Shown here in pieces: positions 8,454 to 63,789 of a DNA stretch of 64,000 bases. The position numbers and the translations under genes are program-made. Origin of the DNA: a virus; IMG/VR virus record IMGVR_UViG_3300005541_000008, positions 1 through 64,000 of that record; one strand, 5' to 3'. Every line of letters starts with the position of its first letter. Within the stretch, counting starts at the first letter, position 1. The notes beneath the pieces were generated by a model. The model searched no databases. It was not told the DNA's origin and saw nothing but the letters and a program-made list of their open reading frames with translations.

Positions 8454-8457
8454 AGCG

Positions 8458-9421: not shown

Positions 9422-9423
9422 CG

Positions 9424-25970: not shown

Positions 25971-25983
25971 AGGAGATGAAACC

Positions 25984-26061: not shown

Positions 26062-26093
26062 ATTTTGCTGAGACGAGACGACGGGGAAGGGAA

Positions 26094-26493: not shown

Positions 26494-26495
26494 GG

Positions 26496-27562: not shown

Positions 27563-27981
27563 GTTGCGGGGAAGGGCTTAAGACGGAATTCGTGCTTGGG
27601 GCGTTTGAAAAGTACCCACAGGAGCTTCAGGTCTCGGTGCACAATATACGTGTGCCGACGCCGTCGTATTGGAAAGAGATCGTATTTTGGAAGGACATAA
27701 AGTATAATATAAGGCACCTAGCACTAGTCATAAACCACTTAGACGAGGAAGGAGGGGCGGAAGTGAGCTGCGACACAAAACTCGAGGTGAACGCTGCGCT
27801 TGATGAGATCGAGCAGATTGCGAAGGATCTCCAGGCGCTGGTTGTTGAGATGAGAAATTATAAGTCGCTCGAGAAGACGCAGGCGACGTGGGATGAGATT
27901 AAGAAGAAGGTGAAGAGGCTTAATTGGGTGATTGCGCATGTGGACGATGCGGCGATCCGGAGGCATTGTGAGAGGGCTTGA
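27559..27981 (+). CDS. Array proteins 12 and 13 fused in frame
   Basis: 140 aa, two complete modules in one ORF. Module 12 (MSCGEGLKTEFVLGAFEKYP) ends HLDEEGGAE and runs straight into VSCDTKLEVNAALDEI of module 13, where the usual stop/start junction would be. The internal GTG at 27763 has the same sequence context as the other starts, so module 13 may also be made separately. Confidence 0.65.
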   Translation: MSCGEGLKTEFVLGAFEKYPQELQVSVHNIRVPTPSYWKEIVFWKDIKYNIRHLALVINHLDEEGGAEVSCDTKLEVNAALDEIEQIAKDLQALVVEMRNYKSLEKTQATWDEIKKKVKRLNWVIAHVDDAAIRRHCERA

Positions 27982-39640: not shown

Positions 39641-39650
39641 GGAGGAGAGC

Positions 39651-40301: not shown

Positions 40302-40304
40302 GGC

Positions 40305-45587: not shown

Positions 45588-46028
45588 GTGTCGTCTCCAA
45601 AGATTGAGGTTGTACGTAAGTTCGGTTTTGATGCTGCGCACAGGCTAATCAACCACGAAGGCAAGTGTGCGTGGCTTCACGGCCACCGCTACACTGTCCA
45701 CGTGCATTTAGCGCCGAAGCTAGGGCTCGACCCTGTTGGTCGGGTGCTTGACTTCGCCGTGATGCAACGTTGGATAGGAGGGTGGCTCGATGAGCACCTT
45801 GACCACAATACTATCCTCCACGAGGAGGACGGCACGCTTGCAGCGGGTATTGCAAAGTTCTGCAGGGGTGGTTCGCCGTTCCTCCTTCCTTATAATCCCA
45901 CAGCAGAGAATATAGCTAAATTCCTTCTCGATACGATCGCCGGGCACCTACTCAAAGGTGTTCCGGTTGTTGTGACGCGTGTCGTTGTTGAAGAAACCCC
46001 TAATTGTAGAGCGGAGGTCGAGATATGA
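45588..46028 (+). CDS. queD: 6-carboxytetrahydropterin synthase QueD
   Basis: 146 aa from a GTG after GAAAGGGA. FDAAHRL, CAWLHGHRYTV, VLDFAV, LDHNTI and PTAENIA are the conserved QueD/PTPS motifs, including zinc-binding His and the catalytic Cys of the C-x3-H-G-H motif. It converts dihydroneopterin triphosphate to 6-carboxytetrahydropterin, the second step from GTP towards preQ0. The partner enzymes QueC, QueE and FolE are encoded nearby. Confidence 0.9.
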   Translation: MSSPKIEVVRKFGFDAAHRLINHEGKCAWLHGHRYTVHVHLAPKLGLDPVGRVLDFAVMQRWIGGWLDEHLDHNTILHEEDGTLAAGIAKFCRGGSPFLLPYNPTAENIAKFLLDTIAGHLLKGVPVVVTRVVVEETPNCRAEVEI

Positions 46029-46366
46029 AGTTTTTCGCGGACCAGAGGATTATTATAAACCTCGAGAAGCTTTTCTACGCGGAGAAGAAGGATGTACCGT
46101 CGGGGAAGAAGATGGATTACTTTCTTATCCTCTACTTCGGTGACGAGACGGACACGGAGGTGGCGTATGGAACGGCGAGGGCGAGAGATGAGGCGTATGA
46201 GAGAATTGTAAGGGCCGTGGAGGGGGCGGAGCATGGAGATCCTGGACGAGAGGGAGATCGAACTGGCGAAGGAGGAGATACAGAAGAAGGGGCTACTGGG
46301 AATAGAGGAGGAGACAGCCAAGAAGTGGGCAGCGAGAGCAGCGGCGGCTTACGTGATGTCAGTTGA
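46025..46366 (+). CDS. Unknown protein with low-complexity tail
   Basis: 113 aa, ATGA overlap with queD. The first 65 residues are well structured (ILYFGDETDTEVAYGTARAR); the last 45 are Gly/Glu/Ser-rich and overlap the next gene by 134 bp in another frame. The tail may have arisen by loss of a stop codon. Confidence 0.45.
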   Translation: MKFFADQRIIINLEKLFYAEKKDVPSGKKMDYFLILYFGDETDTEVAYGTARARDEAYERIVRAVEGAEHGDPGREGDRTGEGGDTEEGATGNRGGDSQEVGSESSGGLRDVS

Positions 46367-46544
46367 CGCTGACGAAGGAGATGCGCAACAGTGGTGGGAC
46401 GACGGCGAGGTGTACAGAAATGAAGCGCTGGAGCACGCTTCGCAAGTCTCGGGAGAACTCGTAGATACGATCGCGGACGCTCTGGAGGAGTATAGGGAGC
46501 CGGCTGCACGCGAGACGGGAAGGGGGTTTTACTATAACGGCTAA
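46233..46544 (+). CDS. Helical protein, unknown
   Basis: 103 aa, ATG with GGAGGGGGCGG upstream. Helical and acidic (MEILDEREIELAKEEIQKKG, then AAAAYVMSVDADEG). Overlaps the previous gene by 134 bp. No family recognised. Confidence 0.5.
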   Translation: MEILDEREIELAKEEIQKKGLLGIEEETAKKWAARAAAAYVMSVDADEGDAQQWWDDGEVYRNEALEHASQVSGELVDTIADALEEYREPAARETGRGFYYNG

Positions 46545-46570
46545 GGCACGGCAACGTAAGGAGGACGGCA

Positions 46571-46906
46571 ATGAACATTAGACAGAGACTACTAGACTCG
46601 GGGAATTTTAAGTGTGCGTGCGGGTGTGGGGAGGTGTTAAAGGACGCGGAGTGTGTGATACCGGCAACGGCGTACGTGCTTAAAGACCACTTTTGGAACC
46701 TCGTACCGAGGCCGGCGATGACACAGGCTGAGGAGGAGGTAGAAGCCGAGCGTACGGGGGTACATCCGAATCCTGAGGCGGAGAGAGAAAGGCAGGGCTT
46801 TGAGTTGTCGAGAGCGGTGTCGCGGCGGGTGAAGCTCTCGAGGGAGGAGAGGGAAGAGTTTAAGAGGTGGAAGGGGGAGAAGGATGAAGGTGGTGAGCCT
46901 GCTTAG
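46571..46906 (+). CDS. Cys-rich protein with FKRWKG tail
   Basis: 111 aa. CACGCGEVL is a Cys cluster, and LVPRPAMTQAEEEVEAERTG follows. The C-terminal LSREEREEFKRWKGEKD is a variant of the shared tail. AAGGAGG site. Overlaps queC by 23 bp. It may regulate or partner the modification genes. Confidence 0.55.
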   Translation: MNIRQRLLDSGNFKCACGCGEVLKDAECVIPATAYVLKDHFWNLVPRPAMTQAEEEVEAERTGVHPNPEAERERQGFELSRAVSRRVKLSREEREEFKRWKGEKDEGGEPA

Positions 46907-47543
46907 CGGGGGTTTGGATTCGACGGTGATGCTTTACGCCCTGCGCGCTGCAAGACATAAGGTGAAGTGCGTGTCGTTTGATTACGGGCAGAGACATAGA
47001 GTTGAGTTGGAGAGCGCGCAGAGTATCGCGATTAATGCGGGGGTCGAGTATAGGAGGGTTGACCTCACAACGATTACGGATCTCCTAAAGGGCTCTTCGC
47101 AAACGGATGAGGCGGTAGACGTGCCCGAGGGGCATTACGCGGCTGAGAGCATGAAGCTGACGGTGGTGCCGAATCGTAATATGATTATGCTCTCGATTGC
47201 CGCAGCTTGGGCAATTAGCACGGGCTATGATGCGGTGGCGTACGCCGCGCATGCCGGGGACCATGCTATCTATCCGGATTGTAGGAGGGAGTATGTGAAG
47301 GAATTGTCAGGGGCTTTCCTCCTCTGCGACTGGCAGCCAATCGCGCTTTACACCCCCTTTATCGACCTCACAAAGGCGGAGATTGTGCAGCTCGGCGTTA
47401 AGCTCGACGCGCCGTTTCACCTTACCTTCAGCTGCTATAAGGGGAAGGCGGGTGTGCATTGTGGCCGCTGCGGAACGTGTACGGAGCGGAAGGAGGCTTT
47501 TACACTAGCGGGGGTTACGGACCCTACAACCTACGAGGCGTGA
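46884..47543 (+). CDS. queC: 7-cyano-7-deazaguanine synthase QueC
   Basis: 219 aa. The PP-loop SGGLDSTVML, FDYGQRH, VPNRNMIMLSIA and a C-terminal CYKGKAGVHCGRCGTC zinc site are complete. It converts 7-carboxy-7-deazaguanine to preQ0 (7-cyano-7-deazaguanine) with ATP and ammonia. The length is normal, and no glutamine amidotransferase domain is fused, so the product is expected to be preQ0 itself. Confidence 0.92.
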   Translation: MKVVSLLSGGLDSTVMLYALRAARHKVKCVSFDYGQRHRVELESAQSIAINAGVEYRRVDLTTITDLLKGSSQTDEAVDVPEGHYAAESMKLTVVPNRNMIMLSIAAAWAISTGYDAVAYAAHAGDHAIYPDCRREYVKELSGAFLLCDWQPIALYTPFIDLTKAEIVQLGVKLDAPFHLTFSCYKGKAGVHCGRCGTCTERKEAFTLAGVTDPTTYEA

Positions 47544-47544
47544 A

Positions 47545-48384
47545 GTGGCGACGAGATTGGTGCTTAGGAACCACGAGATTGATAACTTCCTCCAGTGTCG
47601 TAGGAAGTATAAACTCAAGTGCGACGGGTGGACTGAGCACGATCGCGATGAGAACCTCTTGATCGGCTCTGCCGTGCACGCAGCCCTCGCGGATTGGGCT
47701 TTGAAGAAGGACGAGACGGCGGCGCTCCAACTCGCGTTTAAAGAGGTTGGAACGGTCGAAGGGGAGATTGCGGAGCATGTTTATTTGATCTTATCGGAGT
47801 ACTTTGTCCGGTATAAGAACGACCGCCTCGTGCCTATTGCGACGGAGACAGAGTTTACGGTGCCGCTCGCCGAAGTCACGGTGGACGGTGTGGAGTACGA
47901 TGTCCAAATTGGAATGCGCACCGACGGCCTCGTGTCGTATGAGGGCGGAATTTGGGTAAAGGAGAGTAAGACGACGGGGTTTCCGCCTGCGACGTTCTGG
48001 AGGAAGTTCCTTCTCGATCGACAAACGCTCGAGTATTATTGGGGGTGGCGGAAGAAGTCAGAGCTCAGGATTAGTGGGGTTGTTGTAGATGCGATGTTCA
48101 AGCCGCGTAAAAACCAAAACCCCGAGCCTAAGTTTGACCGTCAATACTTCTCGCCAACGCCCTTCGACGTCGCTCGTTGGGAACGGGAGACGATCTCCAT
48201 TGCACGGGATATAATCCGGACGCGCCACGACAACGACTACTACGGCTCGGGGAAGTGCCAGAGCTACGGGAAGTTTTGCGAGTTTTACGATTATTGTTGC
48301 AACGGCGAGAACCCCGCAGTGCTCGCAAGTACCCACCGCCCCGAGACCGAGGAAGAACGGAAGCGAAGATTAGGGGTGCGGTAG
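47545..48384 (+). CDS. Cas4/RecB-type PD-(D/E)XK nuclease with Fe-S cysteines
   Basis: 279 aa. Features are FLQCRRKYKL near the N-terminus, an H-x-x-L-A-D-W block, YDVQIGMRTDGLV (Asp of the PD motif), VKESKTTG (E-x-K), a Q-x-x-x-Y motif, and three Cys at the end (KCQSYGKFCEFYDYCC) that with the first Cys could hold a 4Fe-4S cluster. That is the Cas4/AddB nuclease layout; a DNA-end exonuclease role in replication or recombination is likely. Confidence 0.75.
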   Translation: MATRLVLRNHEIDNFLQCRRKYKLKCDGWTEHDRDENLLIGSAVHAALADWALKKDETAALQLAFKEVGTVEGEIAEHVYLILSEYFVRYKNDRLVPIATETEFTVPLAEVTVDGVEYDVQIGMRTDGLVSYEGGIWVKESKTTGFPPATFWRKFLLDRQTLEYYWGWRKKSELRISGVVVDAMFKPRKNQNPEPKFDRQYFSPTPFDVARWERETISIARDIIRTRHDNDYYGSGKCQSYGKFCEFYDYCCNGENPAVLASTHRPETEEERKRRLGVR

Positions 48385-48385
48385 G

Positions 48386-48925
48386 GTGCAGGCGCATATC
48401 TACGCGGATGAGGATATTGTTATTATCAAGGCGCCTTGGCGTCCGGGGTTTGCCGATGCGCTCAAGAACGAGTTGCCCAAGGGCGATCGCGCGTGGAATA
48501 ATGAGGACAAGGTTTGGGAGTGTCATCCGCGCCATCTCGAGACGATTGTGGAGATTGCGCAGGACTACTTTGCGGAGGTGATAGTTGACGAGTCGGTCGA
48601 GGCTTTCGAAGCGGAGAAGAAGCAGAAGCCGCAACGCGGACAGCCCACCTTCACCGCGGATGAAGTGCGTAAGCTCAAGGTGGAGTGGGAGAAGAGTATG
48701 CGGGAGAAGATTGAGGCAGAGGTGAGGGCGCGGTATAACTGGGAAAGGTCGGGCACTGGGAAGAATAAGGGGCCGTGGGATGAGCTGCGCGCTATACTCT
48801 CCCAAGATGATATGAAGACGGTGTTTAGGGCGTTGGCAAAGAAGCACCACCCGGACGTCGACGGGAATGACGGGGAGAAGATGAAGAAGCTAAACGCGGT
48901 ATTCGAGAAGATGGGGGTGAAGTAG
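48386..48925 (+). CDS. J-domain (HPD) protein
   Basis: 179 aa. The C-terminal 40 residues (FRALAKKHHPDVDGNDGEKM and KKLNAVFEKMG) hold an HPD motif and helix layout of a J-domain, which would recruit an Hsp70. The N-terminal 70 residues resemble a small DNA-processing domain (LPKGDRAWNNEDKVWECH) seen in phage replication proteins. It may recruit host DnaK to the replisome. The N-terminal function is uncertain. Confidence 0.6.
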   Translation: MQAHIYADEDIVIIKAPWRPGFADALKNELPKGDRAWNNEDKVWECHPRHLETIVEIAQDYFAEVIVDESVEAFEAEKKQKPQRGQPTFTADEVRKLKVEWEKSMREKIEAEVRARYNWERSGTGKNKGPWDELRAILSQDDMKTVFRALAKKHHPDVDGNDGEKMKKLNAVFEKMGVK

Positions 48926-49201
48926 GTGGAGGAGATGCCTTTCACGCCGTGGTCGAAGGCGCGTATTGCGCAGGGGAGGAAATGGGCAACAACGAGAACG
49001 AGGAGCTGGAACGATCCGAGGGTGATCGATATGACGTGGCTCCCGTTAGGGTTTGTGCGGGATCACTTATACGCGATAGAAGGGGCCGACTCTCCGGAAG
49101 AGTTTGAGAGGGTGTGGAAGGGTATTCATAGGGGCCATTTCGATCCGACTAAGGTGGTGTGTGTGCACTTTGGGGATTTCTCTAGGGAGGTAGGGGGATG
49201 A
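48926..49201 (+). CDS. ASCH-like small protein
   Basis: 91 aa, GTG start. FTPWSKARIAQGRKWATTRT, then a conserved W and a late V-C-V-H-F-G-D-F resemble the short ASCH (PUA-like) phage proteins, which may bind RNA. Overlaps the next gene by 4 bp. Assigned on a short pattern only. Confidence 0.45.
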   Translation: MEEMPFTPWSKARIAQGRKWATTRTRSWNDPRVIDMTWLPLGFVRDHLYAIEGADSPEEFERVWKGIHRGHFDPTKVVCVHFGDFSREVGG

Positions 49202-49476
49202 AAGAACCTATCAAGTTTGTATACCTCTGGTCGAACGGAATGGTAATGGTGTTTGATGATGAGGGCGAGCAGGTCACCGAACTCCAAGGGCCGAAGCACG
49301 TCGCAACCGCTAAACTCCTCGACGTGAATTTGGAGAAGGCGCGGTTTTACATGGGGAATTGGGAGACACGGGAACTAATAGAAATACCCAGAGATTCCTT
49401 CTTCTGCGAAGCGTGGGAAGTGACTAGTGAATATCACGAATGGAAAGGGAGGATCGTTGCATATGACCCCTCTTGA
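49198..49476 (+). CDS. Unknown strand-rich protein
   Basis: 92 aa, ATGA overlap with the previous gene. Alternating strands with aromatic residues (FVYLWSNGMVMVFDDEGEQV). Overlaps the phosphatase start by 14 bp. Unknown function. Confidence 0.5.
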   Translation: MKEPIKFVYLWSNGMVMVFDDEGEQVTELQGPKHVATAKLLDVNLEKARFYMGNWETRELIEIPRDSFFCEAWEVTSEYHEWKGRIVAYDPS

Positions 49477-49927
49477 TTCAGGAGTGTGGCGCGGTCCGCG
49501 GCCGGTGACTGTAAAGGACGTATACGCCCTTAAGGAGGCCGGGATTAAGGCGTGTTTGAGTTTGCAAAGCGGGTGGTATGAGGCGCTTCGCGACGAGGTA
49601 TATGAAGAGGATGAGATGCTCGAATCGCGGGGGATAAGGTCGTTCCACCTCCCGCTGAGTGATTGGAGACCCCCAACGCGCGAAGTGTTGGAAACAGCAA
49701 AAATGCTCATGACGGACGTAGCAAACCATCCTATCTACGTGCATTGTCTACACGGGGTGGATAGGACGGGGATTGTGTGTGCGTATTATCGGGTTAAAGT
49801 ACACGGATGGGCGATCGACCGTGCTTTGGGCGAAATGTACACTCTCGGGTTTCATACTATGCCGTATAGATGGCCGTTGGGATGGGTATGGGCTTTGAGA
49901 AAGATAGTAGGAACACCCTCGGCGTAA
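49463..49927 (+). CDS. Dual-specificity protein phosphatase
   Basis: 154 aa from the ATG at 49463 (GGAGG 11 nt upstream). HCLHGVDRTG is the cysteine-phosphatase signature HCx5R(S/T), and the preceding acid-loop region LPLSDWRPP supplies an Asp. It probably dephosphorylates phosphoserine, phosphothreonine or phosphotyrosine, or a nucleotide. Such enzymes are uncommon in phages. Substrate unknown. Confidence 0.75.
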   Translation: MTPLDSGVWRGPRPVTVKDVYALKEAGIKACLSLQSGWYEALRDEVYEEDEMLESRGIRSFHLPLSDWRPPTREVLETAKMLMTDVANHPIYVHCLHGVDRTGIVCAYYRVKVHGWAIDRALGEMYTLGFHTMPYRWPLGWVWALRKIVGTPSA

Positions 49928-50047
49928 AATGCAGATAGTCCTTTTAGACATTAATGTCGTCCTCACCGCACAGCACCTTCCGCGATTAGTATCTTAGCAC
50001 AGCTCCCCACTTGACCTATTTTCGGCCTTGAGGCCTTGGAGGAAAGC
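49928..50047. promoter_or_regulatory. Intergenic region with palindrome
   Basis: GACATTAATGTC (49947-49958) is a perfect 12-bp palindrome and a candidate operator. GGCCTTGAGGCC (50024-50035) is another small inverted repeat. A -35-like TTGACC (50011-50016) has no good -10. It precedes the recombination/replication genes and is a plausible regulated promoter region, not proven. Confidence 0.4.
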
Positions 50048-51013
50048 ATGGCAGACTTATTTGACGACTCAGGAGAGGTTCAGCAGGCCTATCTTAAGGT
50101 ATTGATCTATGGCGGCTCAGGGGCCGGGAAGACGTATACCGCGCTGCAGGTCGCGACGGCGCTCGGGAAGACGGGGATTGTTGACACCGAGAGGGGATCT
50201 GAGCCTTACCGCCCGATATTCAAAAACCCCGACGGGACGCCGTTTTCCGTAGCGCCTACGCGCTCGTGTAAGGTTGTAGTCACGCAAGCTATCCCCGAGG
50301 CAATTAAGAAGGAGTATGCGTGCTTAATTGTCGACCAAGTTTCGACAATGTGGGACGACCTAAAGGATCAGTATATTCTTCAAGAGTGGCGGAAGCAGAG
50401 TAAGGCGTGGTACTTCATCGAGAAGAACGGCAAACTCCCCTTCCAAGCGTGGTCCTTTATAAAAGGGCCTTTCCGCAAGATGATCCGGGAACTCCTCGAC
50501 GCACCTATGCACGTCTTTATCGTGGCGCGCGGTATGGACGAGTTCCAGGTCTCGCAGGACGGCGGAGAGCCGCTGAAGACGGGTGAGCGGCCTGAGGGTG
50601 AGAAGAATACGAAGTTCGAGCCCCCGATTATGGTTAAGATGGAGGGGGACGTGAAGAAGAAGAAGTGGGCCGCGTTTGTGGAGAAGGATAAGTGGAGGGC
50701 GATTGAAGGGCAGGTTTTCATCAACCCGACGGCGGAGATGTTTGCCCCGGTACTCGCGAAACTGGGTTCCGTACACGGAGCAATCCCCGCTCCGGCGGAA
50801 GAAGAGGCCCTGGATATAGGGGAGGTAGCTACGGTAGGCGCGGGGCCGGATCAATTACTGCTCATAAGGAAACTCGCAGAGAAAGGGGGTGTTGCCAATG
50901 ACGTAGTCGAGAAGAGACTCACGAACATTTCACGTGTGGAAGCAGCAGAGATCGTCAACCGTGTGACGCTCAATGATTGGAGCGTCTTTGAAGTTAAAGA
51001 GGAGGTAGGGTAA
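50048..51013 (+). CDS. Sak4-like RecA-fold ATPase
   Basis: 321 aa from the ATG at 50048 (GGAGGAAAG). Walker A GGSGAGKT near residue 25 and Walker B ACLIVDQV, with an arginine-rich C-terminal part. Many phages encode this type of single-strand annealing or recombination ATPase next to a DUF669 protein, exactly as here (51013). It probably acts in ssDNA annealing and recombination. Confidence 0.75.
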   Translation: MADLFDDSGEVQQAYLKVLIYGGSGAGKTYTALQVATALGKTGIVDTERGSEPYRPIFKNPDGTPFSVAPTRSCKVVVTQAIPEAIKKEYACLIVDQVSTMWDDLKDQYILQEWRKQSKAWYFIEKNGKLPFQAWSFIKGPFRKMIRELLDAPMHVFIVARGMDEFQVSQDGGEPLKTGERPEGEKNTKFEPPIMVKMEGDVKKKKWAAFVEKDKWRAIEGQVFINPTAEMFAPVLAKLGSVHGAIPAPAEEEALDIGEVATVGAGPDQLLLIRKLAEKGGVANDVVEKRLTNISRVEAAEIVNRVTLNDWSVFEVKEEVG

Positions 51014-51453
51014 TGAGTGTGCTGGACTTGGACTGGGAAACATTGCCCGATAGTGACGCGTTGCCACCGGGCGAGTATACGCTACGCATCGACAAAGTCT
51101 CGGAAATTCAGCTCGACAAGAGACAAAATCAATACCTGGGCTTCGAGTACTCGGTTATCGAAGGCGAGTATGTGAATCGGAAGGTCTTCGATCCGTACGT
51201 GCCTTTGCAGGGCCGCTCGACGCTCAAAAAGATCCTGCGTGCGACAAAGTTCCCGCAGCAGCGTCTCGGCAACTCCGATCAACTAATCGGACTCACGTTC
51301 AAAGCGGTGCTTCGTGTTGAGAAGACAGAGGAGTACGGCGAACAGAACCGGATTGTCGCGTACATCGACCCGGATAACCGGCAGTCGATGGATATGTCGG
51401 CACCTCCGGTGGGTGCAGGGGCAGCGAAAGCGGGAGCAAGGAAAGGACGGTAA
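51013..51453 (+). CDS. DUF669-type ssDNA-binding protein
   Basis: 146 aa. LPPGEYTLRIDKVSEIQL, YLGFEYSVIEGEYVNRKVFD and LIGLTFKAVLRVE match the OB-fold-like DUF669 family that pairs with Sak4-type ATPases. It ends GAGAAKAGARKGR, a flexible basic tail. Start overlaps the ATPase stop by 1 bp. Likely ssDNA-binding. Confidence 0.7.
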   Translation: MSVLDLDWETLPDSDALPPGEYTLRIDKVSEIQLDKRQNQYLGFEYSVIEGEYVNRKVFDPYVPLQGRSTLKKILRATKFPQQRLGNSDQLIGLTFKAVLRVEKTEEYGEQNRIVAYIDPDNRQSMDMSAPPVGAGAAKAGARKGR

Positions 51454-51467
51454 GAGAAGGAGGACGA

Positions 51468-51602
51468 ATGGTGAGCTTAGCGGACATGCTTCAAGGGTTT
51501 TTGGTGGCTGCGGCGTCAGTAAGCTTCGGCGCCTGGATGGGGAGCTGGACCGCTGGGCTCACCGCGTTCTTCGTGCTGTTGCTCTTAGCACTTATTCGGT
51601 AG
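51468..51602 (+). CDS. Small two-span membrane protein
   Basis: 44 aa, ATG after AGAAGGAGG. MVSLADMLQGFLVAAASVSF then TAGLTAFFVLLLLALIR: two short membrane segments. It fills the gap after the ssDNA-binding protein. Unknown function. Confidence 0.55.
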   Translation: MVSLADMLQGFLVAAASVSFGAWMGSWTAGLTAFFVLLLLALIR

Positions 51603-51612
51603 GGGAGGTGAT

Positions 51613-51849
51613 ATGGAGGACGGAAAGGTAAACCCCTGGCTCGCAGCCGAGGATATAGCGGTGGGGGTGGTGCGCACGGTAGGGGTGAAAGGGATAGTGA
51701 GCTTTCTGAAGAATGTGTTTAGGGGGGCGTCGAATCAGAGCGTACCGCGGGCGGAGGACGTGTATTTAGCGCTCGTAGACCTGGAGAAGACGCTCGAGGT
51801 TGGTGTGCGGGTGGATGTTGAGAAGTTACTAAAAGGGGGAGGCGGGTGA
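51613..51849 (+). CDS. Unknown helical protein
   Basis: 78 aa, ATG after GGGGAGGTG. Helical, with a hydrophobic first half (EDIAVGVVRTVGVKGIVSFL). Function unknown. Confidence 0.5.
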   Translation: MEDGKVNPWLAAEDIAVGVVRTVGVKGIVSFLKNVFRGASNQSVPRAEDVYLALVDLEKTLEVGVRVDVEKLLKGGGG

Positions 51850-51850
51850 G

Positions 51851-52165
51851 ATGGGAGGGTTAATTGAAGGGGTGATGTTTGGGGTGCTGACCGACTGTCA
51901 TACTTCGAAGGAGCGTAGGGTTAAGTGCACGTTTAAGGTAGTGCCCGTAGACGGCCGCGATGCGTTTCAACTATACGGAGGGCCTACGGGGTTTGAGGGC
52001 TTCTACATGGACGGTAGTAAGGAAGCGACGCATCGCACGGGAGGATGGTGCGCGTGTGAGGGTACGAAGGAGCAGTGGGATACACTCAAGTTTTCCGCCG
52101 AGGAAATGACGCACGTTTACGATCACATAGCGAAAGCGAGGAGAAATGGCAATGATAGCCGTTAA
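51851..52165 (+). CDS. Unknown protein
   Basis: 104 aa, mixed strands and helices with four Cys scattered (LTDCHTS, KCTFK, GGWCACEG). Overlaps queE by 20 bp. Unknown function; may be a small domain linked to the modification genes. Confidence 0.5.
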   Translation: MGGLIEGVMFGVLTDCHTSKERRVKCTFKVVPVDGRDAFQLYGGPTGFEGFYMDGSKEATHRTGGWCACEGTKEQWDTLKFSAEEMTHVYDHIAKARRNGNDSR

Positions 52166-52799
52166 TGAGGTGTTTGATACGATTCAGGGCGAGGGGGTGC
52201 ATACCGGAAGGCCGGCCACTTTCGTACGACTCGCGCGGTGTAATCTAGCGTGTATGAAATGCGACTCGGAATTTAACAACCCCGTGATGGAGATGACAGT
52301 GGCCGAGATTATAAAGCGCCTTAACACCAAAATCCCTATCGTGGTGATAACAGGGGGCGAGCCGACGCTGCAAAATCTCGACGCGCTACTAATTGAGCTG
52401 GTGGAAAGGGGATACCAAGCTCATCTGCAAACCAACGGCACACAGAAAATCCACGAGTTCTTCACTTGGGTGTGCGTGAGTCCTAAGCTTAAGTATATGG
52501 AGCCGCTCTACGAATCGGTAATTCGCGCCGACGAGATTAAGATGCCGATTACGTGCGCGGAGGACATTGAGGAGGCCGAAGCCTTCCGCGCTAAGTTTGC
52601 GGGAGCGAAGGCTGAGTGGTACCTACACCCCTGGAATGATAATTTCGAGCAAATCCGCCACGGAAAGAATCTTAGCCCTGGGGCTAGGTCGCTCGAGGGT
52701 TTCAATTCCGATAATAACCGTTTGTGTGTCGAACACGCGGTAAAGACGGGACGCTGGAGAGTTTCTGTTCAGGTACATAAAATTCTTGGCGTAAGGTAG
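52146..52799 (+). CDS. queE: 7-carboxy-7-deazaguanine synthase QueE
   Basis: 217 aa. VFDTIQGEGVHTGRPATFVR and RCNLACMKCDSEF supply the radical-SAM Cx3Cx2C cluster, and ITGGEPTLQ and VSVQVHKILG match QueE ends. It performs the radical-SAM ring contraction from 6-carboxytetrahydropterin to 7-carboxy-7-deazaguanine. ATG with AGGAG upstream. Part of the preQ0 set. Confidence 0.9.
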   Translation: MAMIAVNEVFDTIQGEGVHTGRPATFVRLARCNLACMKCDSEFNNPVMEMTVAEIIKRLNTKIPIVVITGGEPTLQNLDALLIELVERGYQAHLQTNGTQKIHEFFTWVCVSPKLKYMEPLYESVIRADEIKMPITCAEDIEEAEAFRAKFAGAKAEWYLHPWNDNFEQIRHGKNLSPGARSLEGFNSDNNRLCVEHAVKTGRWRVSVQVHKILGVR

Positions 52800-52800
52800 T

Positions 52801-53226
52801 ATGTTGGACTATAGATATATCGCCGGTCTCTTCGACGGAGAAGGTAACTTTTGTATCTCCAAAATCCGGACGAACAACGGCCCCGCAGGTAATTGGGCCT
52901 TCCGTATTTCGCTAGGTATGGCGTATAACCCTATCATAGAAGAGTTATACAAGATGTTCGGAGGGCATCTCAGATCGTATAAATCGAAAAACTGCAACAT
53001 CTTGCGTTGGTATATAAGCAATGCTGCCGAAGCACGGTGGTTTCTGGCAGCTATGTATCCACTATTAATAGTAAAGAGAGAGCACGCCGAGATTATGGGG
53101 ATCTTCCTAAACACTGTAGGGACGCCTAGTAAAGGGCTCTCGGACGAAGCGCGCCAAACACGAGAGCTTTGTGTTGAACTGTTACAGAGTATAAACTTAA
53201 AGAAAGGTAAACGGAAGAGCGGATAA
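52801..53226 (+). CDS. LAGLIDADG homing endonuclease, free-standing
   Basis: 141 aa. IAGLFDGEGNFCISK is the LAGLIDADG helix; a second, degenerate half has ARWFLAAMYPLLIVK. One motif usually means a homodimer. It sits between queE and folE-linked genes with only a 1-bp gap to queE, and its base composition is more AT-rich than its neighbours, consistent with a mobile insertion. Confidence 0.75.
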   Translation: MLDYRYIAGLFDGEGNFCISKIRTNNGPAGNWAFRISLGMAYNPIIEELYKMFGGHLRSYKSKNCNILRWYISNAAEARWFLAAMYPLLIVKREHAEIMGIFLNTVGTPSKGLSDEARQTRELCVELLQSINLKKGKRKSG

Positions 53227-53457
53227 ATGGAATCTTCTGAAAACCCAACTCAGGTAGAGATTAAGATCGTAAGCCCGCTCCCTCCGCGTTTGATATTTAA
53301 GGGGCAGTCCTACGTGCAGTTTGAGGACCCTTTCCTTAAACAATGGGAGACGTTCGGGAGGATTGTGTTTAGCGTTATGCAGCGGGAGCTTTCGCGGGGT
53401 ATGGCACCGGTGATTAGGATTATTATCGACGAAGCGACACTACGGGGAGGAAAATGA
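53227..53457 (+). CDS. Unknown small protein
   Basis: 76 aa, ATG right after the endonuclease stop. Strand-rich start (IKIVSPLPPRLIFKGQSYVQ) and a basic helical middle. Overlaps folE by 4 bp. Unknown function. Confidence 0.5.
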   Translation: MESSENPTQVEIKIVSPLPPRLIFKGQSYVQFEDPFLKQWETFGRIVFSVMQRELSRGMAPVIRIIIDEATLRGGK

Positions 53458-54029
53458 AGGGGATTATTGATAAGGAGCAGGCTAAGAAAGCAGTCTCGTC
53501 ACTACTCGAGTTTTTTCACGTTCCGGATTCGGACGGGATTTACACGGAAACGCCCGAGCGGTTTTTGAACGCGCTTTATGAGATTGTAGGGGGGCAGGGA
53601 GTTGCAGCGCCGTCGCTTAGGACCTTCGAGACCAAGAGCTCGTCGGACATTGTGTTCTTCGGGCCTCTGAAAAGCACGAGTTTATGTCCACACCACCTCT
53701 TCCCGTATCTCGTGGAGGCGTTCTTTGCGTACACGCCGGGTGAGAGGGTGGTAGGGATTAGCAAACCCGGGCGTCTCCTGCAATGGGTGTGTAGTAGAAC
53801 GGGACTCCAAGAGGAGATGGGCGGAGCGTTTCTCGATGAGTTCGAGAAGCAAGTGCCGAATAAGGGCGCGATGCTCCTCCTTAAGGGGTGGCATTTGTGT
53901 GCTTCGATCCGCGGCGCAAAGCAAAGTGAGGCCGAGACGATTACAATCGACACACGAGGAGTTTTCCACACGCAGCACGCCCAGGATAGGTTTATTAGCC
54001 TCGTGAAGCTTGCAAGAGGGGCTGCGTGA
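53454..54029 (+). CDS. folE: GTP cyclohydrolase I FolE
   Basis: 191 aa. ETPERFLNALYEIVGG, STSLCPHHLFPYL with the C-x2-HH zinc ligands, and GWHLCASIRGAKQ with the third ligand Cys, all in the order of FolE. It opens the guanine ring of GTP to make dihydroneopterin triphosphate for QueD. GTGA overlap with the next gene. Completes the preQ0 set. Confidence 0.88.
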   Translation: MKGIIDKEQAKKAVSSLLEFFHVPDSDGIYTETPERFLNALYEIVGGQGVAAPSLRTFETKSSSDIVFFGPLKSTSLCPHHLFPYLVEAFFAYTPGERVVGISKPGRLLQWVCSRTGLQEEMGGAFLDEFEKQVPNKGAMLLLKGWHLCASIRGAKQSEAETITIDTRGVFHTQHAQDRFISLVKLARGAA

Positions 54030-55063
54030 GGCATCCAGCCGCGTATCCGTCATCGAAGTGCGAGAAGTGTCCGTTACTTGAGCGCGTCGACAAGTACCAC
54101 GTGAGCGCCGAGAAGCCGGACACTGCGCGCATTGCTCTCGTGGGCGAGGCGCCCGGGGAGAAGGAGGTGACGTTGCGCAGGCCGTTTGTCGGGCGCTCGG
54201 GAATCCTTATGGACCAGCTCATTGCTGCTGCGGGGATTCGGCGCTCGGAGTGTGTCGTGACGAATGTGCTTAAGTGTCAGCCGCAGGGGAATAAGCTCCC
54301 AAACGATTACCAACTCGACATCGCAATCGGTTGTTGTTCTGAGATCCTCGCCGAGGATACCTCGGGCGTCGAGGTGATAGTGGGTTTTGGGGCGACGCCT
54401 CTCCGCGCGTTTATGCGACTCGACCGGATTACGCAACGCCGGGGCTCTGTGTACAGACTCCCCTCAGGGCAGCTTTATGTTGCGACCCTCCACCCGGCAT
54501 TTCTCCTCCGCGGCACGTTCGTACAAGCGAAGCAAGACGAGACGAAGGTGCTCCCGCCTCAGGTCGTGATAAATGACTTGCGTAAGGCGCGGAGGATATT
54601 GGATGGGAGTTTTGAGGAGGTCGTCGAGAACTTTGTGCTGTATCCCACCGCTGATGATATGATGGCGTTCCTAGAGCGCCTCGAAGAACCTGACGTCCTC
54701 GTCGGCGTGGATATTGAAACGACGTATGTTGACACGTGGAGAAGTGCACAACTCCGTACGATAGCGTTCGCGTTTCCCGATCTCGCGATTGCGGTTGCTG
54801 CGGATACCGATGAGAATTTGATGTTTATTATCGAGGCGCTCGAGAGTCCCGCGAGGAAGGTGTTTCACAACGGGATTTTCGATGTGAGCGTCCTCGAGGA
54901 GACGGGCTTTGAGGTCGTGAATTGGTTCGCCGACGACCAATACATGCACCACCTCGGGTATGCAGAGCTCCCGCATTCGTTAGCCTTTGTGCAGAGTATT
55001 TATAATAATATGCCCTACCATAAGGACATGAGGGATGAGATCGCCGAGGAGTATGAAAAATGA
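54026..55063 (+). CDS. Uracil-DNA glycosylase fused to the start of a DEDDy exonuclease
   Basis: 345 aa. Residues 1-200: family 4-type UDG with CEKC near the start, GEAPGEKEVTLRRPFVGRSG, CQP, AIGCC (four Cys for a 4Fe-4S cluster) and HPAFLLR. From about 225: exonuclease motifs VGVDIETT (ExoI) and HNGIFDV (ExoII). The third exonuclease motif (YNCRDA) is not here but at the start of the next gene. GTG start overlapping folE. It removes uracil and proofreads only if joined to the next ORF. Confidence 0.7.
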   Translation: MRHPAAYPSSKCEKCPLLERVDKYHVSAEKPDTARIALVGEAPGEKEVTLRRPFVGRSGILMDQLIAAAGIRRSECVVTNVLKCQPQGNKLPNDYQLDIAIGCCSEILAEDTSGVEVIVGFGATPLRAFMRLDRITQRRGSVYRLPSGQLYVATLHPAFLLRGTFVQAKQDETKVLPPQVVINDLRKARRILDGSFEEVVENFVLYPTADDMMAFLERLEEPDVLVGVDIETTYVDTWRSAQLRTIAFAFPDLAIAVAADTDENLMFIIEALESPARKVFHNGIFDVSVLEETGFEVVNWFADDQYMHHLGYAELPHSLAFVQSIYNNMPYHKDMRDEIAEEYEK

Positions 55064-56373
55064 GCGACGACCTAACCCTACTCACGTATAACTGTCGGGA
55101 TGCGTTGTCGACGGTGCTCTCCGCCGAGCCTTTATTAAGGGAGCTCGAGACCGACGGCCTGAGCGAGTTCTACTTCCGGATTGTGCAGCCCATGGCACAG
55201 ATCATCGTCAAGATGAACCGGAAGGGCATCTTCGTCGACACTGCGAAGCGCAACGCGGCCGTAACAACCGTCGAAGCAGAGATCGAAGAACTCGAGCATA
55301 AATTCGCGGATCTCGTCGGACGGCCGATGAACGTGAATGGTGCGGAGTTTGGGGATTTCCTCTTCGGAGAATTAGGGCTGCGCGGCTCGCGTCGCGGGGA
55401 CTCCGGACGCTGGCAGGCGGATGAGGAGACGCTGAAACGGGTGTTGCGCGAGTACCCAGACGTCGCGCCCGCAATAAACATGGGGCTCGATATTAGGGCG
55501 AAGAAGAAGATCATCTCCACGTTTCTCCTCCACGCAATCCCCGAGGAGGATAGCCGGGTTCACCCCTCCTTCAAGATCGGTCCCACGACCGGGCGCTTAG
55601 CCTGTCGGCGCCCTAACTTCCAAAACCATCCCGCAGGGGTGTGTAGGAGCGTGTATTGTGCGCCGCCGGGGTTTGTACTCGTGGGGGCGGACTACTCTCA
55701 GCTCGAGATCCGGATCCTCGCAGTCCTCGCTAACGACGCGCCTCTCCTCGAGGCTTTCGCAAACGGGTGGGATATCCACAACACCAATGCCTGGGTGTTG
55801 TTTGGTCTCGAGCAGGGCTCGCCGGTCACAAAACTCCAACGGGTCATCGCGAAGATGTTCCTCTACGGCCTTATGTACGGGGCGGATGACGACACCCTCC
55901 ATACGAACCTGTGTCGTGATATCCCCGAAGGTGTGCCGATGAGTGTTGTGAAGACAATGACCTCGAGGTTCTTTGCTGCGCACCCTGCAATCCGCGCCTT
56001 CCGAACAGTACTCGAGAACAATGTCCGGACGAAGCGGAGACTCGTAAACGCGTTTGGAAGGCGGCGCCTCTTTTTCGGGGAGATACAGAGCGCGATTCGT
56101 CAGGGCTATAACTTCCCGATGCAGGGTGGGGGCGCGGATCTCATTAGCGACCGGATGATCAAGCTCGATCGAGAGATTAGGATCCCGCCGGTTCTCCAGG
56201 TGCACGACTTTGTCGCGTATGAGGTTGAGGAGTCCCGAGGGCAAGAGCACGCGGTGGTCTTGAAGCAAGTGCTCGAGGAGAAGTGCCCCGAGCTTAGTGG
56301 GTACTCATTCCCCGTGGAGACTAAAGTGGTGCAGAATTGGGCGCAGTTCGATCCGGAGTATGCGGATTTGTAG
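55060..56373 (+). CDS. polA: Family A DNA polymerase (polymerase domain)
   Basis: 437 aa. The N-terminus MSDDLTLLTYNCRDA holds the ExoIII motif of a DEDDy exonuclease whose first two motifs are in the previous ORF. Polymerase motifs follow: motif A DYSQLEIRILA (Asp211), motif B RVIAKMFLYGLMYG with Tyr at the usual Phe position, and motif C VHDF, where the usual Glu after HD is Phe but the catalytic Asp is kept. ATGA overlap with the previous gene at AAAAATGA. Length is normal for a polymerase domain. Confidence 0.8.
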   Translation: MSDDLTLLTYNCRDALSTVLSAEPLLRELETDGLSEFYFRIVQPMAQIIVKMNRKGIFVDTAKRNAAVTTVEAEIEELEHKFADLVGRPMNVNGAEFGDFLFGELGLRGSRRGDSGRWQADEETLKRVLREYPDVAPAINMGLDIRAKKKIISTFLLHAIPEEDSRVHPSFKIGPTTGRLACRRPNFQNHPAGVCRSVYCAPPGFVLVGADYSQLEIRILAVLANDAPLLEAFANGWDIHNTNAWVLFGLEQGSPVTKLQRVIAKMFLYGLMYGADDDTLHTNLCRDIPEGVPMSVVKTMTSRFFAAHPAIRAFRTVLENNVRTKRRLVNAFGRRRLFFGEIQSAIRQGYNFPMQGGGADLISDRMIKLDREIRIPPVLQVHDFVAYEVEESRGQEHAVVLKQVLEEKCPELSGYSFPVETKVVQNWAQFDPEYADL

Positions 56374-58816: not shown

Positions 58817-59071
58817 ATGAGGGGAGAAACGAAAGAAGGTGGAATAACTGCTCGCGAGATAATGCAAGCAATCGTAACTTGGAAGCCGCCGATATTTCCC
58901 CGCGACCTACACACAAAACTCGGTATACCGACGGAGCAGTGTGGTCGCAGGATGCAGGTGCTTCATCATTGGGGATGCGTAAAATACGCGGAGCCGGGGA
59001 AGCGTGGGTGGCGCGGCTATGAGGTCACGGAGTGGGGAAGGAGATATGCAAGAGGAAAAGAGGAAGTGTAG
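58817..59071 (+). CDS. Winged-helix DNA-binding protein
   Basis: 84 aa from the ATG at 58817. ITAREIMQAIVTWKPPIFPR, then PTEQCGRRMQVLHHWGCVKY, and a strand pair ending EVTEWGRRYA look like a winged helix. It overlaps the integrase-HNH gene by 26 bp, so it may be its regulator or recombination directionality factor. Confidence 0.6.
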   Translation: MRGETKEGGITAREIMQAIVTWKPPIFPRDLHTKLGIPTEQCGRRMQVLHHWGCVKYAEPGKRGWRGYEVTEWGRRYARGKEEV

Positions 59072-60836
59072 TAAGTGTGGACTCGAAAAGGGCGCCGGAG
59101 ATTTCTACGTCGGGCCCGGTAATTGGTGTAAAGAGTGCAGAAGAAGCTATGTGCGAGGACGCCGGTCTACTCGTAGAGAGCGCGGTAAGCAGCGTCTCTA
59201 TCCTGAGCAGTGGCCTATTCTTTTACAGCACGTAACAAATAAGGAAGCGCTCCTCCTTTTTGACTTACTGCAGAGTTGCGGATTACGCCCCACAGAAGCG
59301 CTCGCTCTCAGAGCCGAGAGTTTTGATTTTTCTCGAGGTACCGTAACGGTAAAGAATACAGATCGCGGGGAAGAGAGAACCCTAATCATGCTCGTGCGTG
59401 CGGATTTGCTAATCGCTTTGGAGGAAAGGAAGGGGTCCATCGATATAAAGCCCCAGATAGCCCGTAAGGTTTTTAGAGAGGCAGTAGCTGCCGGAAAGTC
59501 TGCTCTCGAGAAAGTCACAGAGGAGTATCCTAACGAGGAAAAGCCGGACACGGATGGTCTGAGTATGGCGTCGCTCCGCTACACCTTCGGCCTGCGCCTC
59601 TACAGCATCGGTGCACGAGAGCCCGAGTTTTCCGCTCTCCTTCGGCTCAGATCACGCGAGCCAGTGTGGCCTAACTTCGAGCTTATGAACGAACTCCTAA
59701 AGAAAAGCTGGGAACAGCAACCAAGACTCTGGACTCCGCGTGAGACTTTGGTGGTTTATAATAAGGACGGACTCAAGAAGTGCACACGATGCAGCCAGGA
59801 GAAACCTCCGGAACAGTTCACTCCCGGAGTGAGTAGGTGTCTACAATGCGTTAATGAAGTAGTCCAACCTTATATGGAGAAGCGTAAGAAGGGAGAAGAC
59901 GGTAAACGCAACAAACGCAAGAAAGCGTGGTATGTGTATCCAGATCGCGCGAAGTGGTCACCTAGAGAGAGAATACTCTATCCTGAGCAGTGGCCGAGAT
60001 TCTGGCGGGCTGTGAAGGAGTATAAGTTCCGGATGATCTTCGATCTTATGCAGAGCTGCGGACTCCGTGCTAGAGAAGCCCTCTATATCGGACCGAAGGA
60101 CTTTGACTTCGACCGCGGAGTACTTGCCGTGCGCACGCTAAAACAAGTAGAACGACCAGTGCACGACGTGTTTGTGCGTCCTGACATACTAAGGAGGCTA
60201 AGGAGTATAAAAGTAGACACGGAAGGAAGATACTTCGACTTCGAGTACCCAACCCTATGGGACGAGTTTAAAAGGGTCGCCAAAGAAGTAGGCCTCGATC
60301 CGAAACTCGGAACACACGCGCTACGTCATTGTTGTGCGGTAAGACTAGGGCGGCTTCCTTCTGCAAACGAGATGCAAGCTAGAGCTCTCCTTCGACACAG
60401 TCCAATCAACGTAACACAAGGCTACGCGCAGCCTATAGAAGACCCGCTAAAGCATCAGGAGATTTGGGATCAGTCTTGGACCGAGCAAGAGTGGATCTGG
60501 ATAGCTCTCTTAACAGGGGCTCCTGATTGGGATCAGAGTGAACTAGGATGGATAGAAGAAGATCGCAAACGCGCGACTCGTGACGGATGGATAGATCCCG
60601 AGAGGTGGCAGGCCCTCGTAGACTCGTTGGGGAATAAATGTCTCTGTTGCTGGAAGCAGCCTCCTGATACGACGCTCTACGCAGATCATATAGTTCCGCC
60701 GAGCGCCGGAGGGTTGTGGATCGAGTCCAATCTTCAGCCTCTTTGCCGCACCTGCAATAGCTCGAAGGGTGCAAGGAAGGTAAACTTTCGCAAAAACCCC
60801 CAAGCGGATAGGTCATGGTGCGCTCATCCCCGCTAA
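59046..60836 (+). CDS. Tandem zinc-integrase-zinc-integrase-HNH fusion
   Basis: 596 aa from the ATG at 59046. Zinc knuckle CSKCG...CKEC, then integrase-like unit 1 (YPEQWPILLQHV, SCGLRPTEAL near residue 78, SLRYTFGLRL near 175, no His or Tyr nucleophile found). A second knuckle (CTRCSQEK...CLQC) leads to unit 2: YPEQWPRFWRAV, SCGLRAREAL (Arg near 339), ALRHCCAVRL (H-x-x-R near 421), LLRHSPINVTQGYAQ (Tyr near 458). An HNH domain ends it (CLCCW, DHIVPP, CRTCNSSKG). Unit 2 looks catalytic; unit 1 looks degenerate. Confidence 0.75.
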   Translation: MQEEKRKCSKCGLEKGAGDFYVGPGNWCKECRRSYVRGRRSTRRERGKQRLYPEQWPILLQHVTNKEALLLFDLLQSCGLRPTEALALRAESFDFSRGTVTVKNTDRGEERTLIMLVRADLLIALEERKGSIDIKPQIARKVFREAVAAGKSALEKVTEEYPNEEKPDTDGLSMASLRYTFGLRLYSIGAREPEFSALLRLRSREPVWPNFELMNELLKKSWEQQPRLWTPRETLVVYNKDGLKKCTRCSQEKPPEQFTPGVSRCLQCVNEVVQPYMEKRKKGEDGKRNKRKKAWYVYPDRAKWSPRERILYPEQWPRFWRAVKEYKFRMIFDLMQSCGLRAREALYIGPKDFDFDRGVLAVRTLKQVERPVHDVFVRPDILRRLRSIKVDTEGRYFDFEYPTLWDEFKRVAKEVGLDPKLGTHALRHCCAVRLGRLPSANEMQARALLRHSPINVTQGYAQPIEDPLKHQEIWDQSWTEQEWIWIALLTGAPDWDQSELGWIEEDRKRATRDGWIDPERWQALVDSLGNKCLCCWKQPPDTTLYADHIVPPSAGGLWIESNLQPLCRTCNSSKGARKVNFRKNPQADRSWCAHPR

Positions 60837-60856: not shown

Positions 60857-60891
60857 TCCTATTAGGAATTGAACTAACATTTCTTAGTTCA
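60857..60891 (+). promoter_or_regulatory. Two small inverted repeats after the integrase gene
   Basis: TCCTA/TAGGA (60857-60867) and the perfect TGAACTAA/TTAGTTCA (60870-60877 with 60884-60891, 6-nt loop). The second can fold as a terminator without a U-tract or act as an operator; a TTGAAC box at 60869 overlaps it. The gene at 60929 follows. Confidence 0.4.
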
Positions 60892-60928: not shown

Positions 60929-61126
60929 ATGAATCCAACAGCTAAGCTAATCCTCACAATACTCTCTACTGTAGTTGTAACGGCCCTATTTATCTTCGGC
61001 TTCGAGGTGTGGAAGAATGGGCCTCCGGCTTCACCGAGCTTTGCGTTTGGGTATTATGAGAAGGGGAATGTGTGGAATAGGATTCATATTGATGAGAAGG
61101 GAAGGGTGTTGTGTGCTAAGGAGTGA
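60929..61126 (+). CDS. Small membrane protein
   Basis: 65 aa, ATG with AGGAGGG upstream. One transmembrane helix (LILTILSTVVVTALFIFGF) and a polar C-terminal tail. Overlaps the next gene by 14 bp. Unknown function. Confidence 0.6.
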   Translation: MNPTAKLILTILSTVVVTALFIFGFEVWKNGPPASPSFAFGYYEKGNVWNRIHIDEKGRVLCAKE

Positions 61127-61481
61127 TGTCACGGAGTTCAGGGGGGCGTTTAGGTTCCTGAGCAATTTCTACCCCTCTGAAGTGCTGTGCGATGGGCTTA
61201 AGTTCCGGACTGTGGAGCATGCGTATCAGGCAGCGAAGTTTAGGGATTGGGATCAGAAGCTAAAGATTAGGAAGGCGAGGTTTCCGAGTGAAGCAAAGCG
61301 TCTAGGCAAAGCGCTCGGGATCAGGGAGGATTGGGACGAGGTTAAGGTCGGGGTGATGGAAGAGTTGCTTAGGCAGAAGTTTGCCCCGGGAAGGCCCTTA
61401 CACGTTTTGCTTGTTGCAACCCGCCCGCGAACGCTAATCGAGGGGAATAATTGGGGGGATAAGTTTTGGGGGGGTGTGTAA
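61113..61481 (+). CDS. NADAR (YbiA-like) N-glycosidase
   Basis: 122 aa from the GTG at 61113. FRGAFRFLSNFYPSEV, VEHAYQAAKF, EAKRLGKAL and LIEGNNWGDKFWGG are the conserved blocks of the NADAR family. Members remove ADP-ribose from modified guanine or hydrolyse riboflavin-pathway intermediates. In phages they may counter NAD-based or DNA-ADP-ribosylating defences. Substrate here unknown. Confidence 0.75.
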   Translation: MLRSDVTEFRGAFRFLSNFYPSEVLCDGLKFRTVEHAYQAAKFRDWDQKLKIRKARFPSEAKRLGKALGIREDWDEVKVGVMEELLRQKFAPGRPLHVLLVATRPRTLIEGNNWGDKFWGGV

Positions 61482-62589: not shown

Positions 62590-63194
62590 AACGCCATAGT
62601 CAAAAATTCCTCGTAAAGGCGCGACGACGCAGAGTGACGAAGCACCGCAACCCCGCTTTCGAGTTTATGCAAAACGCCCTCGTAGCGATAGTGCGCGGAA
62701 TCCCTAGTAAAATCGAGGACCTCTGGCAACCCTTATACGAGCGTGTCTATTCCCGGTGCGAAGAGCTAGGGTTTCTCGACACTAAGAACCGGCCGTGTCG
62801 TTATAGGAGGATAAGGATCTTACGGGTTGAGTTTGATGGCCCTTGTAGACTGCACGTGCTTTATAGGGGCAATGTGCGCTTGCTAACCGGTTCCCGCGGC
62901 CCCTACGTAAACTCGTACTGCGCGCCGGAGGTAGAGATTAAACGACACGAGGAGTTGAGAGTGTGCTGTTCTGCAGCGTACGTCTTCGAGATTATTGATC
63001 GCCGACACAAACCCCGTGGTCGTGCTTACCCTGTAGGACGGCGTACGTGTTCGGGGTGTGGTGTGGTGCAGAAGTATAAGCACCCAGAACACACTCTGTG
63101 TTTGGGGTGTTTTAGGGAGATGATCGGGGTTCCAACCTATCTCGTGGGGATGAAAGAGTGGCGTCCCGGGTTTAAAGGAGGTGGGAGTGACTGA
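62586..63194 (+). CDS. Cys-rich virion-associated protein with a capsid-like motif
   Basis: 202 aa from the ATG at 62586 (ATGA overlap). A basic N-terminus (FLVKARRRRVTKHRNPAFEF) is followed by EDLWQPLYER, the same motif as in the capsid-like protein at 5109 (EDLWQPLYDR). Then come the block GFLDTKNRPCRYRRIRI and a C-terminal zinc ribbon (TCSGCG...LCLGC). It lies just before the third capsid-like gene, so a virion role is likely. Confidence 0.55.
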   Translation: MKRHSQKFLVKARRRRVTKHRNPAFEFMQNALVAIVRGIPSKIEDLWQPLYERVYSRCEELGFLDTKNRPCRYRRIRILRVEFDGPCRLHVLYRGNVRLLTGSRGPYVNSYCAPEVEIKRHEELRVCCSAAYVFEIIDRRHKPRGRAYPVGRRTCSGCGVVQKYKHPEHTLCLGCFREMIGVPTYLVGMKEWRPGFKGGGSD

Positions 63195-63789
63195 CTGGCC
63201 TTGGCAACCTGAGAGGAAGGACCCTCTAGAGGAGCGTGCGTGGCGGCGCAACCCTAACCCTGAAGTAATCCACCAACCCGTCTACACACGCATCACGATC
63301 CCCGCACACACACCGGGCTTTGCGAATTACGCATTCGGCTACGCAAGGGGACAGCACATCCCAGAGCTCGGTCGGGTATCGACTCTCCACGACACTAACC
63401 TCGACCAAGCGAATGTGATGCCGTCGAGAAAGTTCGAGTTTCAGACCTTAGTAATTGTAATCACGGCCGCAACACTCAGCGACTACCTCGACGTGTACAA
63501 TAACCTCTTCGGCGAGTTTAGGGTGGTAGATAAGAACATGCTCTATTTCGTGATGCAACATCTTTGCCCTATGTATGTTGCAAACCTCCGCCCTGCGAGT
63601 ACTTTGCCGAGGAATGTAAAGGATCTTCATCTCAACCCGCGCTACCGACGGTTCTCGCACAAGCTCCAAACCCCGATCCTTATCAACCCCTACGAGTTCT
63701 TCCAGCTCCGAGTTGACTGCGACGTGGACTTGGCGTATGCTGTTGGGTTGTATATTGCGCTCGATGGCTTGATGTGGAGACCTGTGTAA
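63187..63789 (+). CDS. Capsid-like virion protein, copy 3 of 3
   Basis: 200 aa from the GTG at 63187 (AGGAGG five nt before). It shares HDTNLDQANVMPSRKFEF, FGEFRVVDKNMLYFV, LINPYEFFQLRVD and the C-terminal M-W-R-P-V with the 5109 protein (DTNLDQA and NPYE are identical). On the opposite strand and far from the others, it begins a second virion block that continues past the window. Probably a minor capsid or vertex protein. Confidence 0.55.
   Translation: MTDWPWQPERKDPLEERAWRRNPNPEVIHQPVYTRITIPAHTPGFANYAFGYARGQHIPELGRVSTLHDTNLDQANVMPSRKFEFQTLVIVITAATLSDYLDVYNNLFGEFRVVDKNMLYFVMQHLCPMYVANLRPASTLPRNVKDLHLNPRYRRFSHKLQTPILINPYEFFQLRVDCDVDLAYAVGLYIALDGLMWRPV

Follow-up and report, generated by a model that had tools for sequence, protein, structure and literature searches.

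What kind of enzyme carries a tyrosine-recombinase fold and an HNH nuclease in one chain, and which of the two parts was grafted onto the other, is the question raised by a single open reading frame (ORF) of an orphan virus. The window, i.e., the whole stretch of DNA analyzed, is 64,000 nucleotides long (positions 1 to 64,000 of IMG/VR record IMGVR_UViG_3300005541_000008), and the source record is a 77,360-base (77.4-kb) orphan virus contig classed as linear. An earlier note on this DNA had placed the ORF at 59046 to 60836, and this extent was borne out as a single open frame, with an ATG at 59046, a stop codon ending at 60836, and no interruption. The ORF and its parts (ZnF, zinc finger; YR, tyrosine recombinase; residues counted from this ATG) are the following:

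59046 to 60836, plus strand: whole ORF of 596 amino acids (P0001) with the layout ZnF1-YR1-ZnF2-YR2-HNH, from its uninterrupted frame and codon score
59061 to 59156, plus strand: zinc finger 1 (residues 6-37; C8, C11, C28, C31), of the phage ZnF-HNH endonuclease type, from the ZnF HMM (i-E 2.9e-5)
59190 to 59720, plus strand: YR1 (residues 49-225), tyrosine-recombinase catalytic-domain fold, from a partial PF00589 match, an AF2 model, and the residue table
59775 to 59873, plus strand: zinc finger 2 (residues 244-276; C246, C249, C265, C268), from the ZnF HMM (i-E 0.0011) and its position within the duplicated unit
59961 to 60455, plus strand: YR2 (residues 306-470), tyrosine-recombinase catalytic domain, from PF00589 over its cut-off, NF040815, and VIA
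60600 to 60794, plus strand: HNH nuclease domain (residues 519-583), from PF14279 and PF01844, both over cut-off

From the profile searches, Phage_integrase of Pfam was found over its cut-off in two stretches of the protein (whole-protein E 3.3e-19). YR2 scored 40.3 bits against PF00589 in a record-wide search (cut-off 27.1), whereas YR1 scored 25.1 bits alone and passes the cut-off only together with YR2. The C-terminal domain is recognized as HNH by PF14279 (HNH_5; 5.2e-11) as well as PF01844 (5.9e-8), and the endonuclease VII family of PHROGs matches the zinc-finger region and the HNH together. YR2 also matched the XerA-like family NF040815 (E 2.7e-22), but its 79.6 bits lie below the equivalog cut-off of 220, and XerA was therefore rejected as a name. 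A filing among defence systems was likewise rejected, as PADLOC gave weak, HNH-driven PtuB matches only.

AlphaFold models were built of the two halves of the protein, with pLDDT of 75.5 for unit 1 and 70.7 for unit 2, where the C-terminal part and the linker are low. The best VIA match of the unit 1 model was the integron integrase IntI4 (2a3v; Z 15.9, rmsd 3.0 Å over 161 residues), and that of the unit 2 model was XerA (5hxy; Z 13.1, 5.5 Å over 148 residues). The alignments behind both models contain YR domains, and hence the models support the fold while not being fully independent of the sequence match. The matches of unit 1 cover mainly the YR catalytic domain (residues ~40-226), the preceding stretch being the zinc finger and a helix, and no clear core-binding domain was seen among the VIA matches of either unit model. 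An N-terminal core-binding domain is usual in tyrosine recombinases, although it is not universal. The earlier note had assigned two integrase-like units and an HNH nuclease from the letters alone and had called for structure prediction; Pfam, PHROGs, and the AlphaFold/PDB comparison back these assignments, with the YR catalytic-domain fold predicted in both units. Its “zinc knuckles” are CxxC...CxxC fingers as in phage HNH endonucleases.

We then considered whether the ORF could be an assembly chimera or a decaying fusion, a doubt that the earlier note itself had raised and to which the failure to find a homologue with the same layout lends some weight. In nearly all 150-nt blocks of the ORF, its own frame has a higher codon score than any of the other five, so that one open frame is accompanied by a coding signal that is steady through all the domains. 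The ZnF-YR duplication is unique to this protein among the 57 YR domains in our tree, and the active sites of the nuclease and YR2 are intact; an artefact or a decaying gene is thus very improbable. GC3 of the YR units is 0.51-0.56 as compared to 0.64-0.74 in the neighbouring genes, which fits acquisition of the ORF from elsewhere. The ORF sits among replication and nucleotide genes that run on the same strand.

The tandem duplication proposed earlier from shared sequence blocks is strongly supported. LYPEQWP occurs at residues 51 and 311, FDL(L/M)QSCGLR at 72 and 332, and DF(S/D)RG at 94 and 354. Unit 1 and unit 2 are 33% identical over 140 columns (BLASTP E 4e-19; residues 6-122 vs their counterparts), with a Smith-Waterman score of 186 where the best of 1000 shuffles reached 60. 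In the tree of 57 YR domains, YR1 and YR2 are sisters (96/93 support), and a branch of 1.04 changes per column separates the pair from the other YR domains. On their alignment and branching, the two ZnF-YR units genuinely arose by duplication within the protein. The branch of YR1 (2.75) is roughly three times as long as YR2's (0.86), which is indicative that decay was one-sided; the tree tool warned that a branch of this length is placed with uncertainty, but the direct sequence match agrees with the sister pairing.

Comparison with 55 other YR domains shows an asymmetry in the residues as well. YR2 has all six catalytic residues (R341, K366, H424, R427, H451, and Y460), i.e., K366 and H451 in addition to the Arg, H-x-x-R, and Tyr already noticed. 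In YR1, the catalytic remnants are R81 and R178 only; A175, L201, and N210 stand at the His, His, and Tyr columns, and there is no clear Lys, with D106 or R107 near that column. The earlier note was right that unit 1 has no nucleophile, but the residue replacing the His of H-x-x-R is Ala175 and not Ser, Ser176 being its neighbour, and the nucleophile of unit 2 is Tyr460 and not Tyr458. The HNH motif, earlier described as complete, is so: H548, N562, and N571 are intact together with the zinc Cys pairs C532/C535 and C567/C570, as in the relatives. YR1 is thus predicted to be catalytically dead with its fold kept, YR2 appears intact, and the protein has two competent-looking active sites of different chemistry.

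To which family, then, does the frame of the protein belong? An HMM built from the zinc fingers that precede the HNH in other ORFs recognized both fingers of this protein (2.9e-5 and 0.0011), and the 89 ordinary YR ORFs gave no match to it (best whole-sequence E 2.3). Identity to the HNH relatives is ~37-52% for those from viral contigs and ~40% for those from genomes. Most of those inspected in viral contigs have ~170-300 residues, lack a YR, and carry a finger at the N-terminus, a long basic linker ahead of the HNH, or both, and the best genome matches have the same build of zinc finger or basic linker followed by HNH; one relative (L159) carries two zinc fingers ahead of its HNH. Hence, the nuclease frame appears ordinary, with the YR domains occupying the place of the linker. 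The protein may be the self-mobilising or genome-rearranging enzyme proposed in the earlier note. Since its zinc fingers and HNH both belong to a widespread family of phage endonucleases, however, a nuclease that borrowed a recombinase fold for its targeting is no less likely than a recombinase that gained a nuclease. The belonging of the fingers to the nuclease family had been left out of the earlier note.

A search for the same domain order, which had been suggested earlier, gave no second example among phages, plasmids, fetched ORFs, and the genome matches listed. Pattern-based scans of viral and genome contigs, which reach only fairly close relatives, found no full-length relative with the whole protein, YR2 alone, or the two-unit alignment, and no related virus contig was found in the viral contig scans; the collections may leave out records very near the window's own. 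tblastn against 50,697 phages and 72,556 plasmids returned separate YR or HNH matches only, none covering 80% of the protein, and no ORF with both domains occurred among the 89 YR ORFs and 92 HNH ORFs fetched. In the genome panels (400 and 396 genomes), none of the matches listed reached the YR tail, all starting at query residue 47 or beyond, and of the 20 regions fetched from them, most of which were long-frame matches, none had a YR in one ORF with the match. These results cover the matches listed, and rare fusions may occur elsewhere in these panels. In the open-access literature searched we found no integrase-HNH fusion, although one may have been published.

Our leading reading, held tentatively, is that the protein is a site-specific nuclease guided by a pseudo-dimeric array of tandem ZnF-YR units, YR2 being possibly still active. 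The base would have been a phage ZnF-linker-HNH endonuclease into whose linker position a YR catalytic domain came, after which the ZnF-YR unit would have been duplicated. YR1 would then have lost its catalytic residues while keeping its fold, most likely as a DNA-binding pseudo-subunit. The two units may sit as a pseudo-dimer on a two-part site, the zinc fingers touching the flanking DNA, and the HNH may cut at or near that site; the likeliest outcome would be targeted cleavage that benefits the gene or the virus in the style of a homing-type endonuclease. DNA binding, cleavage, target, and biological role are what we infer here. The type of the zinc fingers, the HNH relatives without a YR, the intact HNH residues, the lack of a clear core-binding domain, the surrounding run of replication and nucleotide genes, and the low GC3 were counted in favour. 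The combination by which homing endonucleases are recognized, a nuclease and DNA-binding modules in one protein, is indicated by the ZnF and HNH profiles. We favour a nuclease guided by tandem ZnF-YR units because of the precedents of MrpR, a YR fold turned DNA-binding protein (PMC10516654), of homing nucleases documented with repeated DNA-binding modules at one end and the nuclease at the other (PMC10448857), and of Odn. The complete catalytic set of YR2 was counted against it, as pure DNA targeting does not need one; with this set entire, YR2 can probably still cleave or rejoin DNA. Also counted against it were the low pLDDT of the C-terminal part of unit 2 and of the linker, and that the scans brought up neither a second allele of the gene nor a homologous site free of it.

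The chief competitor, rated as less likely, is the virus's own integrase, for which the same catalytic set also speaks. Here, YR2 would perform strand exchange at a site just 3' of the gene, YR1 would be a non-catalytic partner, and the HNH would be an accessory that, for example, nicks the target or, should the dead copy prevent the second strand exchange, resolves an intermediate. The decay confined to YR1 is consistent with such a division of labour. The protein is also the sole recombinase found in the 77.4-kb record, PF00589 and PF00239 matching nothing else there, and 34 bp past its stop codon there is a dif-like inverted repeat; both points favour an integrase and weigh against the guided nuclease, the repeat weakly so.

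60870 to 60891, no strand assigned: candidate recombinase core site TGAACTAA-CATTTC-TTAGTTCA, with perfect 8-bp inverted arms and a 6-bp spacer (weak evidence)

There are 8 such inverted repeats in the 64 kb, as against 1-4 in shuffles. The chance of one falling in the 180-bp gap after the ORF is ~2%, judged after the repeat had been seen, and the candidate site had no match outside the window, neither in the viral contigs nor across a panel of 400 genomes from a single phylum (Chloroflexota). It weakly suggests a core site and is taken as a lead only. The lack of a recognizable core-binding domain, the zinc fingers and HNH of a nuclease family, and the absence of recognized lysogeny genes nearby further argue against an integrase. 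Combining the two chemistries, a single-chain recombinase-nuclease would bind its site as a built-in heterodimer of dead YR1 and live YR2, make one YR strand transfer, and have the reaction completed or redirected by its HNH. We consider this improbable; if true, it would be a mobile-element enzyme with no need of the usual second recombinase-driven strand exchange.

Two further roles appear improbable as well. In an anti-element nuclease like Odn of ICP1, the YR fold would come from an integrative element or satellite and the HNH would cut that element's attachment site. Odn and its relatives do combine a homing-type nuclease with DNA-binding domains taken over from satellites, in some cases two in one protein (PMC10448857), but the searches turned up no satellite whose YR is closely related (identity of the nearest YR domains only ~20-35%), the YR1 and YR2 pair stands on its own long branch, and an intact YR2 catalysis is not needed for such a role. 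An enzyme that processes junctions or ends during viral replication (dimer or concatemer resolution, terminus formation), pairing YR cleavage with an endonuclease-VII-like HNH, has to its credit the PHROG endonuclease VII match over ZnF and HNH and a gene that adjoins replication genes. However, no terminal repeats were seen in the record, and Endonuclease VII of Pfam (PF02945) scored 15.8 bits against a curated cut-off of 23.6, for which reason it was also rejected as a name.

Several other features of the virus were noticed. The structural-looking blocks (960-9439 and 63181-63789 of the window, and L004 at 66000-77352 of the record) have almost no PHROG or Pfam matches and hold many small proteins with one membrane-like stretch (by eye) as well as lytic transglycosylases; the virion-like proteins at 5109-5795 and 63181-63789 are paralogous (BLASTP E 3e-17). 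No tail or terminase gene was recognized among the genes scanned; this may be a tailless virus from a group not yet described. A LAGLIDADG endonuclease ORF (52801-53226; PF00961, E 2.7e-6), a second homing-type nuclease in the same virus, is flanked on one side by a queE-like gene and on the other by a small ORF that precedes a folE-like gene. The queD-, queC-, queE-, and folE-like genes lie in one stretch (45588-54029, by eye), which suggests 7-deazaguanine DNA modification. At 54026-56373, a uracil-DNA glycosylase fused to a 3'-5' exonuclease is followed by a separate polymerase-I-type polymerase ORF with a 4-base overlap. Degenerate tandem repeats with 21- and 26-bp periods (39377-41883) lie between tRNA genes (Gln 37705 and Met 42332), and a tandem run of short ORFs, paralogous-looking by eye and most beginning with GTG and VSC, was seen at 25015-27981. 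Just downstream of the ORF is a NADAR / riboflavin-intermediate N-glycosidase-like gene (61017-61481); an anti-phage NADAR protein is found among the families related to it.

Should both active sites prove functional, the protein would combine two unrelated DNA-cleavage chemistries in one compact enzyme that brings its own pseudo-dimer partner. It would be a natural recombinase-nuclease fusion with which to ask whether the YR fold can target a nuclease. It also illustrates how new targeting parts may be gained by phage HNH nucleases, an enzyme domain here taking the place of a small DNA-binding motif.

Among known systems, phage ZnF-linker-HNH endonucleases (PHROG 1035 / 2633 type; e.g., Streptomyces phage TunaTartare gp203 and Riptide gp247) share the N-terminal CxxC...CxxC finger and the C-terminal HNH with matching catalytic and zinc residues, but they have a basic linker where this protein has two YR domains, with the ZnF-YR unit doubled. 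Recombinases of the XerA or integron integrase type share the full R-K-H-R-H-Y with YR2 and the catalytic-domain fold with both units; unlike them, the protein has zinc fingers, two units per chain of which one is dead, an attached HNH, and no clear core-binding domain. MrpR (YopR), the SPbeta repressor, has a YR fold that lost its recombinase function and binds DNA, and is thus a precedent for YR1 (PMC10516654), whose unit model matches it with a VIA Z of 11.9; nevertheless, this repressor consists of a single unit, has a core-binding domain, and carries no nuclease. ICP1 Odn and the T5orf172 homing endonucleases likewise have a nuclease at one end and borrowed, sometimes repeated, DNA-binding modules at the other (PMC10448857), although their nuclease (T5orf172) and DNA-binding folds (RepA_N, CapR-type fingers) differ from those here; neither T5orf172 nor RepA_N was found in the Pfam scan of the protein, which sets it apart from the Odn type. 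In essence, we judge the protein to be a new chimera, a new combination of known domains whose fold and chemistry are not themselves new.
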